Assembly: GCA_030528645.1 (NCBI GenBank)
Contig: JAUMYM010000010.1
Coordinates: 1-46,966, forward strand
Length of the DNA: 46,966 nucleotides
Origin: Erysipelotrichaceae bacterium
GTDB lineage: Bacteria; Bacillota_I; Bacilli_A; Erysipelotrichales; Erysipelotrichaceae
Direction of reading: 5' to 3'
Both the position numbers and the translations under genes were made by a program. Below the pieces are notes generated by a model. It was given only the letters and a program-made list of their open reading frames with translations. It did not search any database and was not told where the DNA came from. Positions within the stretch are counted from its first letter, which is position 1, and each line of letters begins with the position of its first letter. Of this stretch, positions 29,588 to 37,508 are shown in pieces.

Positions 29588-31048
29588 TTATGCAACCATC
29601 ATTGCAATTGATAAGATAATGATATTTGCAATAGCGATAACAAATAATAACTTCATTACCCATTTTAAGTATGTTGAGTATTCAATCTTAGCTGCTCCAA
29701 TACCACCCATTACAACACCTGAAGTTGGTGTGAATAAGTTGATTAAACCTGAACCAGCACTGAAGATCATAATCATAACACTAGCATTGAAGCCTAATGT
29801 GTTTGCTAATCCACCCATAACCGGCATTGATAATCCAGCTAATCCTGAAGTAGATGGCACTAAGAAGCTTAATACTAAGTATACAATGTATGACATTGGT
29901 GCAAAGATAAAGCCCGGAACACCTTGTAATAATTTAGAACTTACATCCAAGATATATAAATCCATGTGTGTAGCGTTCATTACAATTGTAATACCTCTAG
30001 CTGTTGCAATAATTAATGCTACTGATAATAAATCAGCTGCACCAGCCATGAAGTTATCAATAAATTCTTTTTCACTCATTCTTGCAACTAATGCTACTAA
30101 AACAGAAGCGATGATGAATAATGCTGCAAGATCCATGAAGTACCACCAACCAAGTGGAGTACCAGTTAATGCATCTGACCAACCAAATGCTGCTAAGTAT
30201 GCTTCTTCATTACCACCAAAGATAATGTCTTGGTAGTAGATTAATGATACGATCATTAATACGAATGTTAAAGCAAAGATTGTTAACACTAGTCTGTGTT
30301 TTGAAGTGAATTCTAAATCTCTGTTTTCATTTTTTGAGAAATGTTCATGCATTACTTCTTGTTCTTGTAATGACAAGATTGTAGAACCTTTATCACGTTT
30401 TACTTTCTTCGCATAACTTAATACAAATAAGATTGCGATGAATGTACTAGTAACCCATAAAATTGCTCCTAAAATCATAATTAATGTTGGATTCGGTTCA
30501 ACCCCTGAGCTTGATAAGGCAGCCATTGCTGCACCTGTTGCAAATGGGTTAATTGTAGAACCTAACACCCCAGTACCAGCTCCTAATAGTACTGTACCAA
30601 CCGCAACAATTGAGTCAAATCCTGCTGCAACCATTGCTGTTGTAATTAACGCATAGAAACCGATTGTTTCTTCTGCCATACCATAAGTTGTACCACCAGC
30701 TGAGAATAGAATCATTAATACAACGATTAATACTTCTTCTTTTCCTTTTAATTTCTTAACTAAATGATATACCCCTGCTTCTAATGCTCCAGTTTTCATA
30801 ACAATACCAATGAATCCACCGATTGCTAAGATGAAGATAATTAAATCTGAAGCATCTTTAAATCCATTTGGAATTGCCATAATAAAATCTGAAAGTTTTG
30901 CACCAGTTACCGCTGCAACTTCACCTCCAATTGCCGGATCAATTGCTTGACCATTTAGTAATAGTGAAATTAAGCAAATAACACCCATTACTAAAATCAA
31001 GATTGAAAAGGCAGATAGAGATGATTTCTTTTTCTTTTGAGTAGCCAT
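29588..31048 (-). CDS. arcD: YfcC-family membrane transporter, probable arginine/ornithine exchanger
   Basis: Integral membrane protein of 486 residues with about 12 hydrophobic segments; the short basic head (ATQKKKKSS) is cytoplasmic. Gly/Ala-rich motifs SAGGTTYGMAEETIGFYAL and TINPFATGAAMAALSS fit the YfcC/DcuC-like family often used as the arginine-ornithine antiporter in deiminase operons. Its place as the last gene of arcABCD supports that role, importing arginine and exporting ornithine. Exchange stoichiometry is inference from the pathway. Ribosome site AGGAGGAAGGG; followed by a strong terminator. Confidence 0.85.
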   Translation of the reverse strand: MATQKKKKSSLSAFSILILVMGVICLISLLLNGQAIDPAIGGEVAAVTGAKLSDFIMAIPNGFKDASDLIIFILAIGGFIGIVMKTGALEAGVYHLVKKLKGKEEVLIVVLMILFSAGGTTYGMAEETIGFYALITTAMVAAGFDSIVAVGTVLLGAGTGVLGSTINPFATGAAMAALSSSGVEPNPTLIMILGAILWVTSTFIAILFVLSYAKKVKRDKGSTILSLQEQEVMHEHFSKNENRDLEFTSKHRLVLTIFALTFVLMIVSLIYYQDIIFGGNEEAYLAAFGWSDALTGTPLGWWYFMDLAALFIIASVLVALVARMSEKEFIDNFMAGAADLLSVALIIATARGITIVMNATHMDLYILDVSSKLLQGVPGFIFAPMSYIVYLVLSFLVPSTSGLAGLSMPVMGGLANTLGFNASVMIMIFSAGSGLINLFTPTSGVVMGGIGAAKIEYSTYLKWVMKLLFVIAIANIIILSIAMMVA

Positions 31049-31065
31049 ACCCTTCCTCCTTTAGC

Positions 31066-32001
31066 TTACTTCTTTATAATAGTTCCTGTTTCACCACTTA
31101 AAGCTGCTTTTGCTCTTTGCAATGAAGTAATTAACGCAACCCCATTGCTAGTAGCTTCTACAAACTCAAGACAAGCTTCCACTTTAGGTAACATAGACCC
31201 TGGAGCAAAGTGTCCTTCACCAATATATTGTTTAGCTTGCTCAACGTTCATTTCAGCTAGTGATTCCTGATTAGGTTTATTGTAATTAATGCATACACGA
31301 TCTACTGCTGTTAGGATTACTAACATATCTGCCTTAACATCTAAAGCAAGTTTTGCGCTAGAACGGTCTTTATCAATAACGGCTGCAACACCTTTTAAGC
31401 CATCTTCCGTTTCTACAACCGGGATACCGCCACCACCAACTGTGATTACAATATCACCTAAGCTTACAAGTTGTTCAACTACTTTTAATTCAACAATCTT
31501 TGTAGGTTTTGGACTTGGAACGACACGACGATAGCCACGTCCAGCATCCTCAACAAAGATGAATCCTTTTTCAGCAGCTGTTTTTTCAGCTTCTTCTTTT
31601 GTTAAAAATGATCCAATTGGTTTTGTTGGTTTTGCAAAAGCCGGATCTTGAGGATCTACAACTACTTGTGTTACTACACAAGCAACTTCTTTTGCAACCT
31701 TACGTTTTGCAAGTTCTCTTTGAATAGATTGTGTTAAATGATAACCAATATATCCTTGAGACATTGCACCACATTCTGGAAATGGCATGTATGGAGTTTT
31801 ACCACCATTCAGTGATGAAAACTCCATTGCATTATTGATCATACCTACTTGTGGACCATTTCCATGACCAATAATTACATCATATTCTTCTGCCAAATCT
31901 ACAATTGTTTTTGCAGTTTCTTTTACTAATTCTAATTGTTCTTCTGGAGAATTACCTAACGCATTTCCTCCTAAGGCGATTACTAATCTCTTTCTTTCCA
32001 T
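31066..32001 (-). CDS. arcC: Carbamate kinase
   Basis: A 311-residue kinase making ATP from carbamoyl phosphate, the energy-yielding step of the deiminase pathway. IALGGNALGN (N-terminal Gly-rich), GHGNGPQVG, VVDPQDPAFAKPTKPIG, VEDAGRGYRRVVPSP, GGGGIPVV and VIDKDRSSAKLA are the expected amino-acid kinase motifs. Located 12 nt after arcB and 17 nt before the transporter gene. Usual family length. Confidence 0.96.
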   Translation of the reverse strand: MERKRLVIALGGNALGNSPEEQLELVKETAKTIVDLAEEYDVIIGHGNGPQVGMINNAMEFSSLNGGKTPYMPFPECGAMSQGYIGYHLTQSIQRELAKRKVAKEVACVVTQVVVDPQDPAFAKPTKPIGSFLTKEEAEKTAAEKGFIFVEDAGRGYRRVVPSPKPTKIVELKVVEQLVSLGDIVITVGGGGIPVVETEDGLKGVAAVIDKDRSSAKLALDVKADMLVILTAVDRVCINYNKPNQESLAEMNVEQAKQYIGEGHFAPGSMLPKVEACLEFVEATSNGVALITSLQRAKAALSGETGTIIKK

Positions 32002-32013
32002 AGCGACTCTTTT

Positions 32014-33018
32014 CTACTTTAATGTAGCATACATACAAGCTTTAATTGTATGCATACGGTTTTCTGCTTCATCAAACACACGACTGTGTTTACCTAAGAA
32101 TACATCATCGCTTACTTCCATGCCATTTAAGTCATACTTATCACCAAATTTAGCATGAATTTCTTTCCCGATTGTTGTATTTAAGTCATGGAATGATGGT
32201 AAACAGTGTAAGAAGATAACATCTTTATCTGCTTGATCAATTACGTTTTGAGTCACTTTATAAGGACTTAATAATTTAATTCTTTCTTCCCAAACTGAAT
32301 CAGGTTCACCCATTGATACCCAAATATCTGTATAGATTGCATGAGCACCCTTTACTGCTTCAGAAACATTTTCAGTAAATTCAACTTTTGTTCCATGTAG
32401 TTTTGCAAATTCTTTTGCTCTTTCAACTAATTTTGGATCAGCCCATAATTCTTTTGGACCACAACCAACATAATCTAACCCTAATTTAGCACAAACAACC
32501 ATTAATGAGTTAGAAACGTTATTACGGCAATCACCCATAAATACAAACTTTAAGCCTTTTAGACGACCGAAGTTTTCTTTGATTGTTAACATATCAGCAA
32601 TCATTTGTGTAGGGTGGAAATCATCAGTTAAACCATTCCAAACAGGAACTCCAGAATATTTTGCTAGAGCTTCTACTTGTTTTTGATCAAACCCACGATA
32701 TTCAATACCATCATAGAAACGACCTAATACTTTAGCAGTATCTTCAATAGACTCTTTTTTACCCATTTGGCTAGAACCTGGATCTAAGTATGTAACACCC
32801 ATACCTAAGTCCATACCAGCTACTTCAAATGAGCAACGAGTACGAGTTGATGTTTTTTCAAACAACAACACAATGTTTTTACCCTCTAAATAACGGTGAG
32901 GAGTACGAGCAAGTTTAAGTTTTTTAAACTGTTCACTTAAATCAATTAAATAATTAATTTCTTCAGGTGTATAATCTGCTAAAGCTAATAAACTGCGTCC
33001 TTGTAAATTTACTGGCAT
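32014..33018 (-). CDS. arcB: Ornithine carbamoyltransferase, catabolic
   Basis: A 334-residue enzyme that phosphorolyses citrulline to ornithine and carbamoyl phosphate. The carbamoyl-phosphate site STRTR (57-61), HPTQMIAD, and FLHCLPSFHD (HCLP loop) are intact. Location between arcA and arcC marks it as catabolic rather than biosynthetic. Length usual. Confidence 0.95.
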   Translation of the reverse strand: MPVNLQGRSLLALADYTPEEINYLIDLSEQFKKLKLARTPHRYLEGKNIVLLFEKTSTRTRCSFEVAGMDLGMGVTYLDPGSSQMGKKESIEDTAKVLGRFYDGIEYRGFDQKQVEALAKYSGVPVWNGLTDDFHPTQMIADMLTIKENFGRLKGLKFVFMGDCRNNVSNSLMVVCAKLGLDYVGCGPKELWADPKLVERAKEFAKLHGTKVEFTENVSEAVKGAHAIYTDIWVSMGEPDSVWEERIKLLSPYKVTQNVIDQADKDVIFLHCLPSFHDLNTTIGKEIHAKFGDKYDLNGMEVSDDVFLGKHSRVFDEAENRMHTIKACMYATLK

Positions 33019-33049
33019 ATTTTTTATCCTCTTCTTTCTGTCAATTTAC

Positions 33050-34279
33050 TTAGTCTTCACGTACAAGTGGCATACTCATACAACGAGGTCCACCACGACC
33101 AACACATAAGTTATCTGCATCTAATTCTAATACTTCAAAGCCATTTTCTTTTAAGTATTTATTTGTAACATAGTTGCGTTTGTAAACAACAATCTTACCT
33201 GGAGCAATTGTTAATGTATTTGAACCATCGTTCCATTGTTCTCTTTCAGCAGCAATTGGATCTCCAGCTCCACATGCAAATAATCTAACTTTATCTAAGC
33301 CCATGAATTTAGCTAAGATTTCACTTAACTCACCATCATGTTCTTCAATTTTAACATCATGATTTTCACGATCTGCAGTAATTGCAAATACTTGTAATGT
33401 ACCCATGATTCCCGGATGATATGTAAATGCATCATGGTCAATTTGAGTAAACACTGTATCTAAGTGCATCATCGCTCTATTATTAGGAATGTTAAATGCT
33501 AAGATAGTTTCAATCTTATTTTCCGGATTTTCATAGAACATTTTCATTGCTAATGCTTGAATCGCATCTGCTTGTGTTCTTTGAGAAATACCAATGAATA
33601 ATAATTTTTCATTAACGTTTAATACGTCTCCACCTTCAATATGGAATTTGTTGTTACGGCCATATAAATCAGGTACTTTTCCTGCATATTCAGGGTGGAA
33701 TCTAAAGATGTAATCTGCATAAATTGTTTCACGATTTCTTGTTACAGAATACATTCTATTAATTACCGCACCATTACCTACACTTGAGAATGGGTCACGA
33801 GTGAAGTATAAGTTAGGCATTGGGTTTAATAATAAGTAAGATTCTTTATCAATCTTATCTACTAAGAAGTTTGTTTTAATATCACCTAATTCAGCAAATG
33901 TAACACCTGCCATAGTTTTTAAAACTAAATCTTTATTGTTAGTAAATGTATTAAAGTAATCTTTTAAAATCTTATGATATGTTTCAGTGTGAATATCACC
34001 TTCAGTAATGAATTGATCTAAAAATTGTTCTTTAATTTCAGGATGAGCATCTAATGTTTCTGCCATCAAGTCTTCTAAATATACAACTTCTACACCGTTA
34101 TCTCTTAAAATTTGAGCAAAACGATCATGTTCTTCTTGCGCTTTTACTAAGTCAGGAATATCATCAAATAATAATTCTGATAAAGTTGTTGGAGTTAAGT
34201 TTAATAATTCTTCTCCAGGTCTGTGTAGTAATACTTTTTTAAGTGGTTTAATTTCACTTGTTACATGAATTTTTGTCAT
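33050..34279 (-). CDS. arcA: Arginine deiminase
   Basis: A 409-residue cytoplasmic enzyme converting arginine to citrulline and ammonia. Conserved elements are LLHRPGEEL, NLYFTRDPF, FHIEGGD, MHLDTVFTQID and the catalytic cysteine C400 in GRGGPRCMSMPL. First gene of arcABCD behind a 140-bp leader region with AAAGGAGATC before ATG. The operon gives ATP, ammonia for acid resistance, and competes with argS for arginine. Confidence 0.97.
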   Translation of the reverse strand: MTKIHVTSEIKPLKKVLLHRPGEELLNLTPTTLSELLFDDIPDLVKAQEEHDRFAQILRDNGVEVVYLEDLMAETLDAHPEIKEQFLDQFITEGDIHTETYHKILKDYFNTFTNNKDLVLKTMAGVTFAELGDIKTNFLVDKIDKESYLLLNPMPNLYFTRDPFSSVGNGAVINRMYSVTRNRETIYADYIFRFHPEYAGKVPDLYGRNNKFHIEGGDVLNVNEKLLFIGISQRTQADAIQALAMKMFYENPENKIETILAFNIPNNRAMMHLDTVFTQIDHDAFTYHPGIMGTLQVFAITADRENHDVKIEEHDGELSEILAKFMGLDKVRLFACGAGDPIAAEREQWNDGSNTLTIAPGKIVVYKRNYVTNKYLKENGFEVLELDADNLCVGRGGPRCMSMPLVRED

Positions 34280-34420: not shown

Positions 34421-34441
34421 AAACGACCAAAACGGTCGTTT
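34421..34441 (-). terminator. Terminator of argS
   Basis: AAACGACC (34421-34428) pairs with GGTCGTTT (34434-34441), loop AAAAC, followed by T residues on the minus strand. It overlaps the argS stop codon. Confidence 0.8.
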
Positions 34442-36080
34442 ACATCTTTTCAGGCGCACTAATCCCTACTAAATCTAAGGCATTTGCTAATGTAATCTTA
34501 GTCGCAACTAACAAGCCTAAACGTTGATTTGTTAGTTCCGGATTACTTGCATCCATGATTTTATGAGCCCCATAGAAACTATGGAAATAGCTCGCTAATT
34601 TTTGAATGTAATTACAAATCTTATTTGGAGAACGTGTAGCTGCAGCATCACCAACTACACCAACAAATTCATTGATATACTTTAATAAATCAACTTCTTT
34701 TTCACTAGTTAATAAATCATATTTTTCAAGTGGTTTAAATTCACCAGCTTGTCTTAAAATGGAACAGATACGAGCATGTGCATATTGAGCATAGTACACC
34801 GGATTCTCATTTGTCTTTTTACGAGCTAAGCCTAAATCAAAATCTAAATGGGTATCTACCGCACGACTTACAAAGAAATAACGAGCTGCATCAATACCGA
34901 TATCATCGCATAATTCACGAATAGTAATGGCATTCCCTGTACGCTTACTCATCTTCACTTCCGCACCGTTTTCAACAAGACGAACCATTTGAATAATATC
35001 TACTTCTAAATCTTTTGGACCATAACCACAAGCTTGGATGGCTGCCACCATACGAGGAATATACCCATGGTGATCTGCACCCCAAAGATTTACTAATTTT
35101 GTATAACCACGTTCAAATTTATACATGTGATTTGCAATATCCGGTGTTAAGTATGTTAATGTGCCATCTGCTTTACGCAATACACGATCTTTATCATCGC
35201 CCCATTTTGTTGACTTAAACCATAAAGCACCATCTTCTTCATATGTTAAGCCCATTTTATTCATGCGTTCAATGATTTCATCCACACGACCATCATCGTA
35301 AAGACCTTGCTCACTTACCCAAGAATCAAAATCACAACGGTAGTAATCTAGATCTTCTTTGATTTTTTCCAATTCTTTATTACGTCCGGCTTCCTTAAAG
35401 AATTCAATACGTCCTTCTTCTTTGTGTAACCAAACATCTCCAAGCTCTTTAGCAAGTTCAATACCGATTTCTTTGACATCTTGTCCCATGTAACCATCTT
35501 CCGGAATGTCTACATGTACTCCAAAATATTCAGCATAACGAGCATAAACCGATTTACCTAAATTAATCATTTGTGCTCCGGCATCATTGATGTAGTACTC
35601 TCTTAAACAATCATACCCACTCTTCATTAATAAACGACAGATACAATCGCCCCAAGCAGCACCACGAGCATGACCTAAATGTAAGTTTCCTGTTGGATTC
35701 GCACTTACGTATTCTACTAAAATACGTAAGCCATCACCTGTGTTATTTTTGCCATAATCGCTACCTTCATTAATAACAGTGTTAATGACAGCAGCTAATG
35801 ATTCTTTCTTCATCCAGAAGTTAATAAAACCAGGACCTGCAATTTCAATCTTATCTAAGTCTTCTACCGTTTGTTCTAACTCAGCCTTGATTTCATTTGC
35901 AATCACTGCCGGTGCCTTCTTACATACTTTGGCTAAACGCATTGCAATATTTGTAGAATAATCGCCATTGGTATTATCCTTAGGGATTTCTACCATAATT
36001 AAAGAATCATCTTCTACTTGATATAGTTTTAAAACGGCATCTTTAATATTTGTTTTTAATTTTTGATCAATTTTACTCAT
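34440..36080 (-). CDS. argS: Arginyl-tRNA synthetase
   Basis: A 546-residue class I synthetase charging tRNA-Arg. The HIGH-equivalent HLGHARGAAWGD, KMSKR loop (VKMSKRTGNAI), N-terminal tRNA D-loop-binding domain and C-terminal helical domain (NPVYYAQYAHARICSILR) are complete. I start at ATG 36080; an upstream in-frame ATG at 36092 overlaps the GGAGGG site (36085-36090). An arginine T-box lies upstream, but a tRNA-Arg gene with its own promoter and a terminator stands between the T-box and this gene. Confidence 0.96.
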   Translation of the reverse strand: MSKIDQKLKTNIKDAVLKLYQVEDDSLIMVEIPKDNTNGDYSTNIAMRLAKVCKKAPAVIANEIKAELEQTVEDLDKIEIAGPGFINFWMKKESLAAVINTVINEGSDYGKNNTGDGLRILVEYVSANPTGNLHLGHARGAAWGDCICRLLMKSGYDCLREYYINDAGAQMINLGKSVYARYAEYFGVHVDIPEDGYMGQDVKEIGIELAKELGDVWLHKEEGRIEFFKEAGRNKELEKIKEDLDYYRCDFDSWVSEQGLYDDGRVDEIIERMNKMGLTYEEDGALWFKSTKWGDDKDRVLRKADGTLTYLTPDIANHMYKFERGYTKLVNLWGADHHGYIPRMVAAIQACGYGPKDLEVDIIQMVRLVENGAEVKMSKRTGNAITIRELCDDIGIDAARYFFVSRAVDTHLDFDLGLARKKTNENPVYYAQYAHARICSILRQAGEFKPLEKYDLLTSEKEVDLLKYINEFVGVVGDAAATRSPNKICNYIQKLASYFHSFYGAHKIMDASNPELTNQRLGLLVATKITLANALDLVGISAPEKM

Positions 36081-36091
36081 CTTACCCTCCA

Positions 36092-36126
36092 TATAAAATA
36101 AAAACTGTTAATATGATTAACAGTTT
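36092..36126 (-). terminator. Intrinsic terminator between tRNA-Arg and argS
   Basis: Perfect 11-bp stem AAACTGTTAAT (36102-36112) / ATTAACAGTTT (36116-36126), loop ATG, then TTTTATTTTAT on the minus strand, ending right before the argS ribosome site. It should end the tRNA transcript and would also reduce any T-box transcript reaching argS. Confidence 0.75.
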
Positions 36127-36136
36127 AATTTACTAT

Positions 36137-36213
36137 TGGCGCGCCCAGTAGGACTTGAACCCGCAACCTTTTGATCCGTAGTCAAACGCTCTATCCAGTT
36201 GAGCTATGGGCGC
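36137..36213 (-). tRNA. tRNA-Arg(ACG), copy 1
   Basis: 77 nt including an encoded CCA end; acceptor GCGCCCA/TGGGCGC, loop CTACGGA giving anticodon ACG (read as ICG after deamination). Identical over its whole length to copy 2 at 37123-37199. It lies between the T-box terminator and argS with its own promoter and terminator. Confidence 0.95.
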
Positions 36214-36225
36214 ATCTTCCTTATA

Positions 36226-36254
36226 ATAATAACAAATTAAATTCAGTTAATCAA
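36226..36254 (-). promoter_or_regulatory. Promoter of tRNA-Arg copy 1
   Basis: Minus-strand TTGATT (36249-36254), 17-bp spacer, TATTAT (36226-36231); the start would be ~6 nt before the tRNA. The -35 overlaps the end of the T-box terminator T tract. Confidence 0.55.
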
Positions 36255-36283
36255 CAAAAAAAAATCTCTTTTTACAAAGAGAC
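36253..36283 (-). terminator. T-box leader terminator
   Basis: GTCTCTTT/AAAGAGAT hairpin (minus strand; 36276-36283 and 36264-36271), loop GTAA, followed by a run of nine T. It competes with the antiterminator formed by the conserved T-box sequence next to it. Confidence 0.85.
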
Positions 36284-36469
36284 GAAAAACCGCGGTACCA
36301 CTCTAATTGCCAGTATAAAACTGACCACCTCTTTTTTAACGCAAAGTTACGCCTACCTTACTTTCATACAGCAGGATCTCCAAAGCTCGTTTCATCTAAT
36401 CACCATATCTTCTTCCACCACACAAGACTCGCTTTTATGTCACTTAGATTACTACTCTTTTTCATCGAT
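36256..36469 (-). promoter_or_regulatory. T-box riboswitch leader, specifier CGA (arginine)
   Basis: The conserved antiterminator sequence AGAGTGGTACCGCGG lies at 36290-36304 (minus strand) just before a terminator. Stem I landmarks AAAAAGAGTAGTA, GGTGGAAG and CTTTGGAG are present. Aligning GAAA-xyz-nine bases with the known glyQS specifier loop puts CGA (36387-36389) as specifier, an arginine codon, which fits argS downstream. A one-base shift would read ACG (threonine), so the codon rests on that alignment and on context. Uncharged tRNA-Arg should stabilise the antiterminator and raise downstream expression. It is unusual in being followed first by a tRNA-Arg gene. Confidence 0.9.
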
Positions 36470-36475
36470 ACATCA

Positions 36476-36504
36476 ACATTACATGAAACCTATCACAATG
36501 TCAA
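36476..36504 (-). promoter_or_regulatory. Promoter of the T-box/argS unit
   Basis: Minus-strand -35 TTGACA (36499-36504), 17-bp spacer, -10 TAATGT (36476-36481), with a start expected near 36469. Confidence 0.65.
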
Positions 36505-36565: not shown

Positions 36566-36641
36566 TGGTGGTCCCGGCCGGAATCGAACCAGCGACACAA
36601 GGATTTTCAGTCCTTTGCTCTACCGACTGAGCTACAGGACC
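36566..36641 (-). tRNA. tRNA-Phe(GAA)
   Basis: 76 nt with encoded CCA; anticodon loop CTGAAAA; acceptor GGTCCTG/CGGGACC with one T-G wobble. Last gene of the tRNA unit. Confidence 0.95.
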
Positions 36642-36643
36642 AT

Positions 36644-36720
<77 letters not shown>

Positions 36721-36751
36721 ATATTGTGTAACCAACGTTACATAAATTGAA

Positions 36752-36842
36752 TGGCGGAGGAACTGGGATTCGAACCCAGGCGCCAGTTTCCCGACCTACC
36801 GGTTTTCAAGACCGGACCCTTCAACCACTTGGGTATTCCTCC
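36752..36842 (-). tRNA. tRNA-Ser(TGA)
   Basis: 91 nt with a long variable arm and encoded CCA; anticodon loop CTTGAAA gives TGA; discriminator G, as usual for serine. Confidence 0.95.
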
Positions 36843-36859
36843 ATAATTTGTCAATTGAT

Positions 36860-36936
36860 TGGTGGACCCTGTAGGACTCGAACCTACGACCAACCGGTTA
36901 TGAGCCGGTAGCTCTGACCAACTGAGCTAAGGGTCC
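36860..36936 (-). tRNA. tRNA with CAT anticodon, probably tRNA-Ile2 (lysidine)
   Basis: 77 nt with encoded CCA; loop CTCATAA. The body GGACCCTTAGCTCAGTTGG resembles bacterial tRNA-Ile2, which reads AUA after TilS changes C34 to lysidine, rather than elongator Met, which is the next gene. Ile2 identity is by recalled resemblance. Confidence 0.8.
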
Positions 36937-36945
36937 TCACTAAAA

Positions 36946-37022
36946 TGGTAGCGAGGGTGGGACTCGAACCCACGACCTTCCGGGTATGAACCGAACGCTC
37001 TAGCCAACTAAGCTACCTCGCC
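36946..37022 (-). tRNA. tRNA-Met(CAT), elongator
   Basis: 77 nt with encoded CCA; CGGTTCATACCCG anticodon arm is like Bacillus elongator Met. Acceptor GGCGAGG/CCTCGCT with a terminal G-T wobble. Confidence 0.85.
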
Positions 37023-37035
37023 AGCTTAATTTAAC

Positions 37036-37112
37036 TGGTCGGGATGACAGGATTTGAACCTGCGACCCCTTGATCCCAAATCAAGTGCACTACCAAGCTG
37101 TGCTACATCCCG
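37036..37112 (-). tRNA. tRNA-Pro(TGG)
   Basis: 77 nt with encoded CCA; loop TTTGGGA gives TGG; C1-G72 pair in CGGGATG/CATCCCG is typical of proline. Confidence 0.95.
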
Positions 37113-37122
37113 TTAAATTAAA

Positions 37123-37199
37123 TGGCGCGCCCAGTAGGACTTGAACCCGCAACCTTTTGATCCGTAGTCAAACGCTCTATCCAGTTGAGCTATGGGCGC
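37123..37199 (-). tRNA. tRNA-Arg(ACG), copy 2
   Basis: 77 nt with encoded CCA, identical to copy 1 at 36137-36213. First gene of the seven-tRNA unit Arg-Pro-Met-Ile2-Ser-fMet-Phe. Confidence 0.95.
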
Positions 37200-37226
37200 A
37201 CATACACTAGTTAACAGTGCTTAATT

Positions 37227-37255
37227 ATGATAACAAATTTTAATCGTTATTGCAA
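37227..37255 (-). promoter_or_regulatory. Promoter of the seven-tRNA unit
   Basis: Minus-strand TTGCAA (37250-37255), 17-bp spacer, TATCAT (37227-37232), ~28 bp before tRNA-Arg copy 2. Confidence 0.6.
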
Positions 37256-37312
37256 GTTATTTTTGTAAATTAATCAAAATAATTTTTGTCATCAAAACAC
37301 AGTAAATAAAAA

Positions 37313-37331
37313 AATCTTTTCCTCAAAGATT
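37313..37331 (-). terminator. Terminator after tRNA-Leu
   Basis: AATCTTT/AAAGATT stem (37313-37319, 37325-37331), followed by a T run on the minus strand; 13 nt after tRNA-Leu. Confidence 0.7.
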
Positions 37332-37343
37332 CTTTTAACAAAA

Positions 37344-37430
37344 TGGTGGGGATGAAGGGACTTGAACCCTTACGATGTTTCCATCACCGGATTTTAAGTC
37401 CGATGCGTCTACCTATTCCGCCACATCCCC
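37344..37430 (-). tRNA. tRNA-Leu(TAA)
   Basis: 87 nt with long variable arm and encoded CCA; loop CTTAAAA gives TAA; acceptor GGGGATG/CATCCCC, discriminator A. Confidence 0.95.
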
Positions 37431-37434
37431 ATTT

Positions 37435-37508
37435 TGGAGGTTCCTATCAGATTTGAACTGATGATCACAGAGTTGCAGTCTATTGCCTTACCACTTGGCT
37501 AAGGAACC
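37435..37508 (-). tRNA. tRNA-Cys(GCA)
   Basis: 74 nt with encoded CCA; loop CTGCAAC gives GCA; discriminator T (U73) is the cysteine identity base. Confidence 0.95.

Follow-up and report, generated by a model that had tools for sequence, protein, structure and literature searches.

An arginine T-box that probably controls the gene for its own tRNA ligand together with argS

What does a T-box control when the first gene behind it encodes a tRNA of the family that the T-box senses? We encountered this arrangement in a 46,966-nucleotide stretch of an Erysipelotrichaceae genome (the window), where the minus strand carries, in order, a T-box, its terminator, a gene for tRNA-Arg(ACG), an 11-bp hairpin with a U-tract, and argS. 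The first-pass annotation had proposed that antitermination would first transcribe the tRNA, a point with which the order of the parts agrees, and that argS would then need read-through of a second terminator. It had also raised the possibility of a recent tRNA insertion that disturbs control.

The leader matched the T-box family RF00230 over positions 36474-36275 of the minus strand with 112.9 bits, compared to a gathering score of 93 (E 2.6e-24). Within this segment (36275..36474) lie stem I, the specifier, and the antiterminator of an arginine-class T-box, preceded by the promoter TTGACA-17-TAATGT (36476..36504, minus strand). Corresponding leaders in two relatives, Anaerorhabdus furcosa and the metagenome-assembled genome SUG468, scored 123.3 and 111.3 bits; both also carry the consensus -35 element TTGACA upstream (16-nt spacer in A. 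furcosa, 17-nt in SUG468), and GATGAAACGAGCTTTGGAGAT of the window's T-box leader occurs unchanged in both. The intrinsic terminator of the T-box, TCTCTTT-GTAA-AAAGAGA followed by U9 (~36256..36282, minus strand), has a stem of 7-8 bp and folds at -8.2 kcal/mol, with counterparts of -12.9 kcal/mol in A. furcosa and -10.6 in SUG468. As judged from sequence and fold, its 5′ arm UCUC overlaps the 3′ strand of the antiterminator, making the two structures mutually exclusive.

To set the register of the specifier, we aligned the genome's twelve T-boxes to one model, took as the specifier the triplet that immediately precedes the final base of the specifier bulge, and read the downstream genes, which were named by eye from their translations. 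For all 11 of the other T-boxes, the specifier matched the amino acid of the next gene: AUC for ileS, GUA for valS, UAC for tyrS, UCU for serS, CUU for leuS, GCU for alaS, UGG for trpS, AUG for a metN-like gene, ACU for thrS, UUC for pheS, and AAG for lysS. These alignments confirmed that the twelfth T-box, which lies ahead of argS, has the specifier CGA and reads arginine. We rejected a threonine specifier (ACG register), since the other T-boxes back the CGA register in 11 of 11 cases and the thrS T-box uses ACU. The T-box, CGA specifier, promoter, and terminator of the first-pass annotation thus held up, and its coordinates were right.

Which tRNA would this T-box bind? The only tRNA-Arg anticodons recovered in our tRNA search of the genome were ACG, in two identical copies, and UCU. 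A pattern search for tRNA-Arg(UCG) found none in the genome of the window, strain OH741, SUG468, or A. furcosa, and the two matches to the UCG pattern resemble the variable arm of tRNA-Leu. Since no tRNA-Arg(UCG) was found, only the ACG tRNA, read as ICG, is expected to decode CGA, and the T-box would be expected to bind tRNA-Arg carrying inosine 34, made from the gene lodged behind the T-box and from its twin. This agrees with the earlier claim that the lodged tRNA belongs to the ligand family. The CGA specifier has no Watson-Crick anticodon partner among the genome's tRNAs and would require an I-A pair. Watson-Crick pairing between specifier and anticodon is usual in T-boxes and not strictly defining. 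As the specifiers UCU, CUU, GCU, and ACU also lack a Watson-Crick partner, making five of the twelve T-boxes overall, a loose third position is normal in this organism. The T-box base that faces the discriminator G73 is U, and a G-U pair at this position is allowed according to TBDB (PMC7778990).

The lodged tRNA-Arg(ACG) gene (36137..36213, minus strand; ARAGORN; RF00005, 60.7 bits) encodes its CCA end and is identical over 77 of 77 bases to a housekeeping copy 900 bp away (37123..37199, minus strand), which was found in the tRNA search and has its own promoter (TTGCAA-17-TATCAT with TG). That copy sits in a cluster of nine tRNAs just upstream (36566-37508), which ends in a terminator at 36553-36533. 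On the plus strand, antisense to the lodged tRNA, positions 36139-36213 resemble the Rfam family Plastid-ycf2 at a score below threshold (35.4 bits; gathering score 65.7), a hit that looks like a tRNA-derived artefact.

As the first-pass annotation had described, the lodged gene is flanked by a promoter-like site and a perfect 11-bp terminator. The candidate promoter, TTGATT-17-TATTAT with an extended TG (36226..36254, minus strand), lies in an A/T-rich region in which promoter-like sites are frequent (6 found versus 4.3 expected); its counterpart in A. furcosa is TTGAAA-17-TAAGAT with TG, and SUG468 has none. The terminator of the tRNA unit (36095..36126, minus strand) consists of the perfect, A/U-rich 11-bp hairpin AAACTGTTAAT-CAT-ATTAACAGTTT (36126-36102) and the U-tract that follows. 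The stretch containing this hairpin folds at -13.2 kcal/mol (z -3.97; 0 of 200 shuffles), and by energy the hairpin at least equals the T-box terminator (-10.5 versus -8.2 kcal/mol). Its sequence has diverged in A. furcosa (CTGTTAAT/ATTAACAG in the window versus CTGATAC/GTATCAG), and since both hairpins are nevertheless perfect, the structure after the tRNA has been kept.

The argS gene (34440..36080, minus strand) encodes an arginine--tRNA ligase of 546 amino acids (TIGR00456, 492 bits). Its start is best set at the ATG at 36080, after GGAGG, given that the ATG at 36092 lies ahead of this ribosome site. Scanning for consensus promoters between the tRNA and argS gave no good match in the window, A. 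furcosa, or SUG468, the best candidate fitting the consensus at 7 of 12 positions (window) or 8 of 12 (A. furcosa). Thus, argS most likely depends on read-through, as first proposed, and the strong independent argS promoter that would have spoken against this view did not appear in this consensus scan. Beyond argS follow arcA, ornithine carbamoyltransferase, arcC, and a YfcC-like transporter, genes of the arginine deiminase pathway (29588-34279); arcA also lies ~1 kb after argS in A. furcosa, but not in SUG468.

The first-pass annotation had suggested comparing argS leaders among relatives, and our scan for argS relatives returned 58 loci. The order T-box, tRNA-Arg(ACG), argS recurred in the near-identical OH741, in A. 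furcosa (ArgS 83% identical to that of the window), and in SUG468 (75%). Rfam scans covered 19 loci, mostly the closest, and the others were checked by exact core pattern only; none of the other Rfam-scanned loci had a T-box upstream of argS, and a T-box-argS leader lacking the tRNA was not found among the fetched loci by either method. In the ArgS tree, the window, OH741, and A. furcosa form a clade (support 97/92) whose sister is SUG468 with locus L020, the five grouping together with support of 98/95. L020 has neither the T-box nor the tRNA, and the block is probably older than this ArgS clade, with a loss in L020. Since the upstream genes differ among the three lineages that carry it, the T-box, tRNA, and argS travel as one block.

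The lineages differ in what surrounds the tRNA. In both the window and A. furcosa, the tRNA is preceded by a promoter-like site with an extended -10, located behind the T-box, and followed by a hairpin terminator. SUG468 is more compact, with a gap of only 6 nt between the tRNA and the last T run behind the T-box terminator and a 21-nt, hairpin-free spacer from tRNA to argS. With no space for a tRNA promoter and no second terminator, the T-box of SUG468 must gate both tRNA and argS. In 13 of the argS loci, a tRNA gene lies close upstream, on one strand or the other, and in nine of these the nearest one is a tRNA-Arg, which suggests that the pairing of tRNA-Arg with argS was available before the T-box joined. 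A tRNA-Arg (ACG or UCT) adjoins argS, on either strand and without a T-box, in L068, L023, L024, L021, L034, and L050; L068 has a terminator-like hairpin behind the tRNA, with only ~20 nt remaining before argS. A Traorella locus (L019, 4511-4722) carries an arginine T-box with the specifier CGC before an MBL-fold hydrolase-like gene, which sits ~1.4 kb downstream of argS.

We favor, with a probability of about 0.68, the reading that the locus is a T-box-controlled tRNA-synthetase operon in which a constitutive tRNA unit is nested and argS is reached by read-through. Uncharged tRNA-Arg(ICG) would bind the CGA T-box and allow the antiterminator to form, and polymerase would continue into tRNA-Arg(ACG) and then leak through the second terminator into argS. 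Excision of the tRNA, by RNase P and 3′ processing, would leave the argS mRNA. The inner promoter would give the window and A. furcosa a steady supply of the tRNA as well; since most transcripts begun there would stop at the second terminator, argS output would stay below that of the tRNA. SUG468 would represent a simpler form, with tRNA-Arg and argS gated jointly by the T-box and no element between the two. The anatomy of the locus is our basis for proposing antitermination, read-through, processing, and any shift in tRNA-Arg abundance, and it indicates that the switch probably controls its own trigger molecule in addition to the usual enzyme. Because the linked tRNA has its own promoter and an identical second gene, the effect of the T-box on total tRNA-Arg in the window may be small; and because the energy of the second hairpin at least equals that of the T-box terminator, read-through into argS might be low. 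The rarity of CGA among arginine specifiers, its need for an I-A pair with this tRNA, and the lack of both T-box and tRNA in L020 also weigh against our reading.

One could instead regard the tRNA as an independent housekeeping unit that happens to lie in the leader, in which case the T-box would matter only for argS and tRNA-Arg levels would be unchanged. Such a unit would account for the promoter-like site with its extended TG in the window and A. furcosa, for the compensated terminator, and for the tRNA-Arg genes that lie beside argS without a T-box in L023 and L068. Moreover, each of the four genomes that carry the block has another tRNA-Arg(ACG) gene, so that tRNA supply does not rest on the switch alone. 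We nonetheless consider this reading rather unlikely, since the tRNA of SUG468, which has neither promoter space nor terminator, is obligatorily under the T-box, and since every T-box argS leader found by exact core or Rfam scan carries the tRNA.

Another possibility is that the second hairpin serves mainly as a 5′ stabilizer or processing signal of the argS mRNA after tRNA excision. The hairpin ends ~12 nt before the ribosome site, near the 5′ end that the processed mRNA would have. However, a hairpin followed by a U-tract is the classic form of a terminator, a tRNA unit with its own promoter requires one, and argS of SUG468 manages without a hairpin; we therefore judge this role improbable.

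A further feature of the inner unit could bear on processing. The 13 nt directly after the tRNA (trailer arm ATAGTAAATTAAA, 36124..36136, minus strand) can form 13 pairs with 13 nt of the inner promoter region (leader arm TTTAATTTGTTAT, 36229..36241, minus strand), enclosing the tRNA in a possible leader-trailer helix. The corresponding arms in A. furcosa are TTTTGTTTGTTAA and TTAACAAACAAAG. Between the two sequences, double changes affect three of the pairs and single changes another three, with every pair preserved; the same number of random changes keeps all pairs in ~1 in 10,000 trials, a comparison made after the helix had been noticed and with two independent sequences behind the covariation. 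Among 121 tRNA genes of the available loci, the helix ranked first in the window, tied with the near-identical OH741, and third in A. furcosa. In the window, the duplex energy was no better than that of shuffled sequences (p about 0.2), and the helix forms with p 0.03-0.13 in the ensemble. In A. furcosa, the helix forms (p 0.96-0.99), beside the terminator and not against it. We found no support for the leader-trailer repeat acting at equilibrium as an antiterminator against the second terminator, which is not displaced in the folding model: the terminator core forms with p >= 0.95 with or without the leader arm. A role in processing is possible.

The leader arm, formed by the tRNA's own -10 region, would occur solely in RNA started at the T-box promoter. 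Conceivably, the origin of a transcript decides its fate: in RNA begun at the T-box promoter, and in no other, the helix would steer processing or the read-through to argS. We consider this idea improbable; if true, the T-box would act as a switch for its own ligand and at the same time mark the transcript.

Last, the notion that a copy of the neighboring cluster tRNA recently inserted into an ordinary T-box-argS leader and disrupted it, to which the 77/77 identity with the copy 900 bp away lends some color, can be dismissed as highly improbable, since the tRNA is present in the same order in three lineages, with ArgS down to 75% identical to that of the window, within a clade supported at 98/95, a T-box-argS leader without the tRNA was not found among the fetched loci, and the terminators, though diverged, are intact and, like the flanks, kept with compensating changes.

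We asked how widespread the arrangement is. The open-access literature yielded no T-box before a tRNA gene or before the gene for its own ligand, and in the accessible text of TBDB (PMC7778990) and of reviews, the T-box targets mentioned are protein genes only. Pattern surveys of 315 genomes of the order, 296 of the class, 295 of the phylum, and 291 of Clostridia, sets that overlap, found a T-box followed directly by a tRNA only in the present clade. The pattern was strict, missing SUG468, and the samples seem thin in Bacillales and Lactobacillales. Other matches were tRNA tandems or T-boxes before protein genes, and the remainder we judged from their sequences to be chance. Going by its layout, a T-box ahead of its own ligand's gene is a new form of T-box system.

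The known targets of T-boxes are synthetases, biosynthesis, and transport, the charging side. Placing the ligand gene under the switch would change the feedback: a shortage of ArgS would be corrected, but scarce arginine would, in addition, drive up the uncharged ligand and keep the switch on. The locus may offer a natural, testable example of a riboswitch governing the level of its own ligand RNA: one relative (SUG468) has the minimal form, and two lineages have an added constitutive tRNA unit.

Parts of this design have parallels. The E. coli thrU-tyrU-glyT-thrT-tufB operon is a mixed tRNA-mRNA operon; there, as would be the case here, tRNA and a gene for a translation protein share one transcript that is split by processing, but at our locus a tRNA-sensing riboswitch stands ahead of both genes. 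The tRNA-Arg(ACG)-argS loci L023 and L068 resemble the window in having a tRNA-Arg unit with a hairpin directly upstream of argS; they differ in lacking a T-box, and in L023 the tRNA terminator is followed by a promoter-like site. A further likeness is to the transcriptional T-box before a synthetase gene (RF00230), which, as here, combines stem I with the specifier, stem III, the T-box/antiterminator, and a competing terminator with a downstream synthetase gene for the same amino acid. Unlike the usual arginine T-box, ours has the specifier CGA, the rarest for arginine in the part of TBDB tabulated in Table 1 of PMC7778990, at 1% of arginine T-boxes; and unlike the usual T-box, the first gene after its terminator is that of the ligand tRNA, followed by a second terminator.
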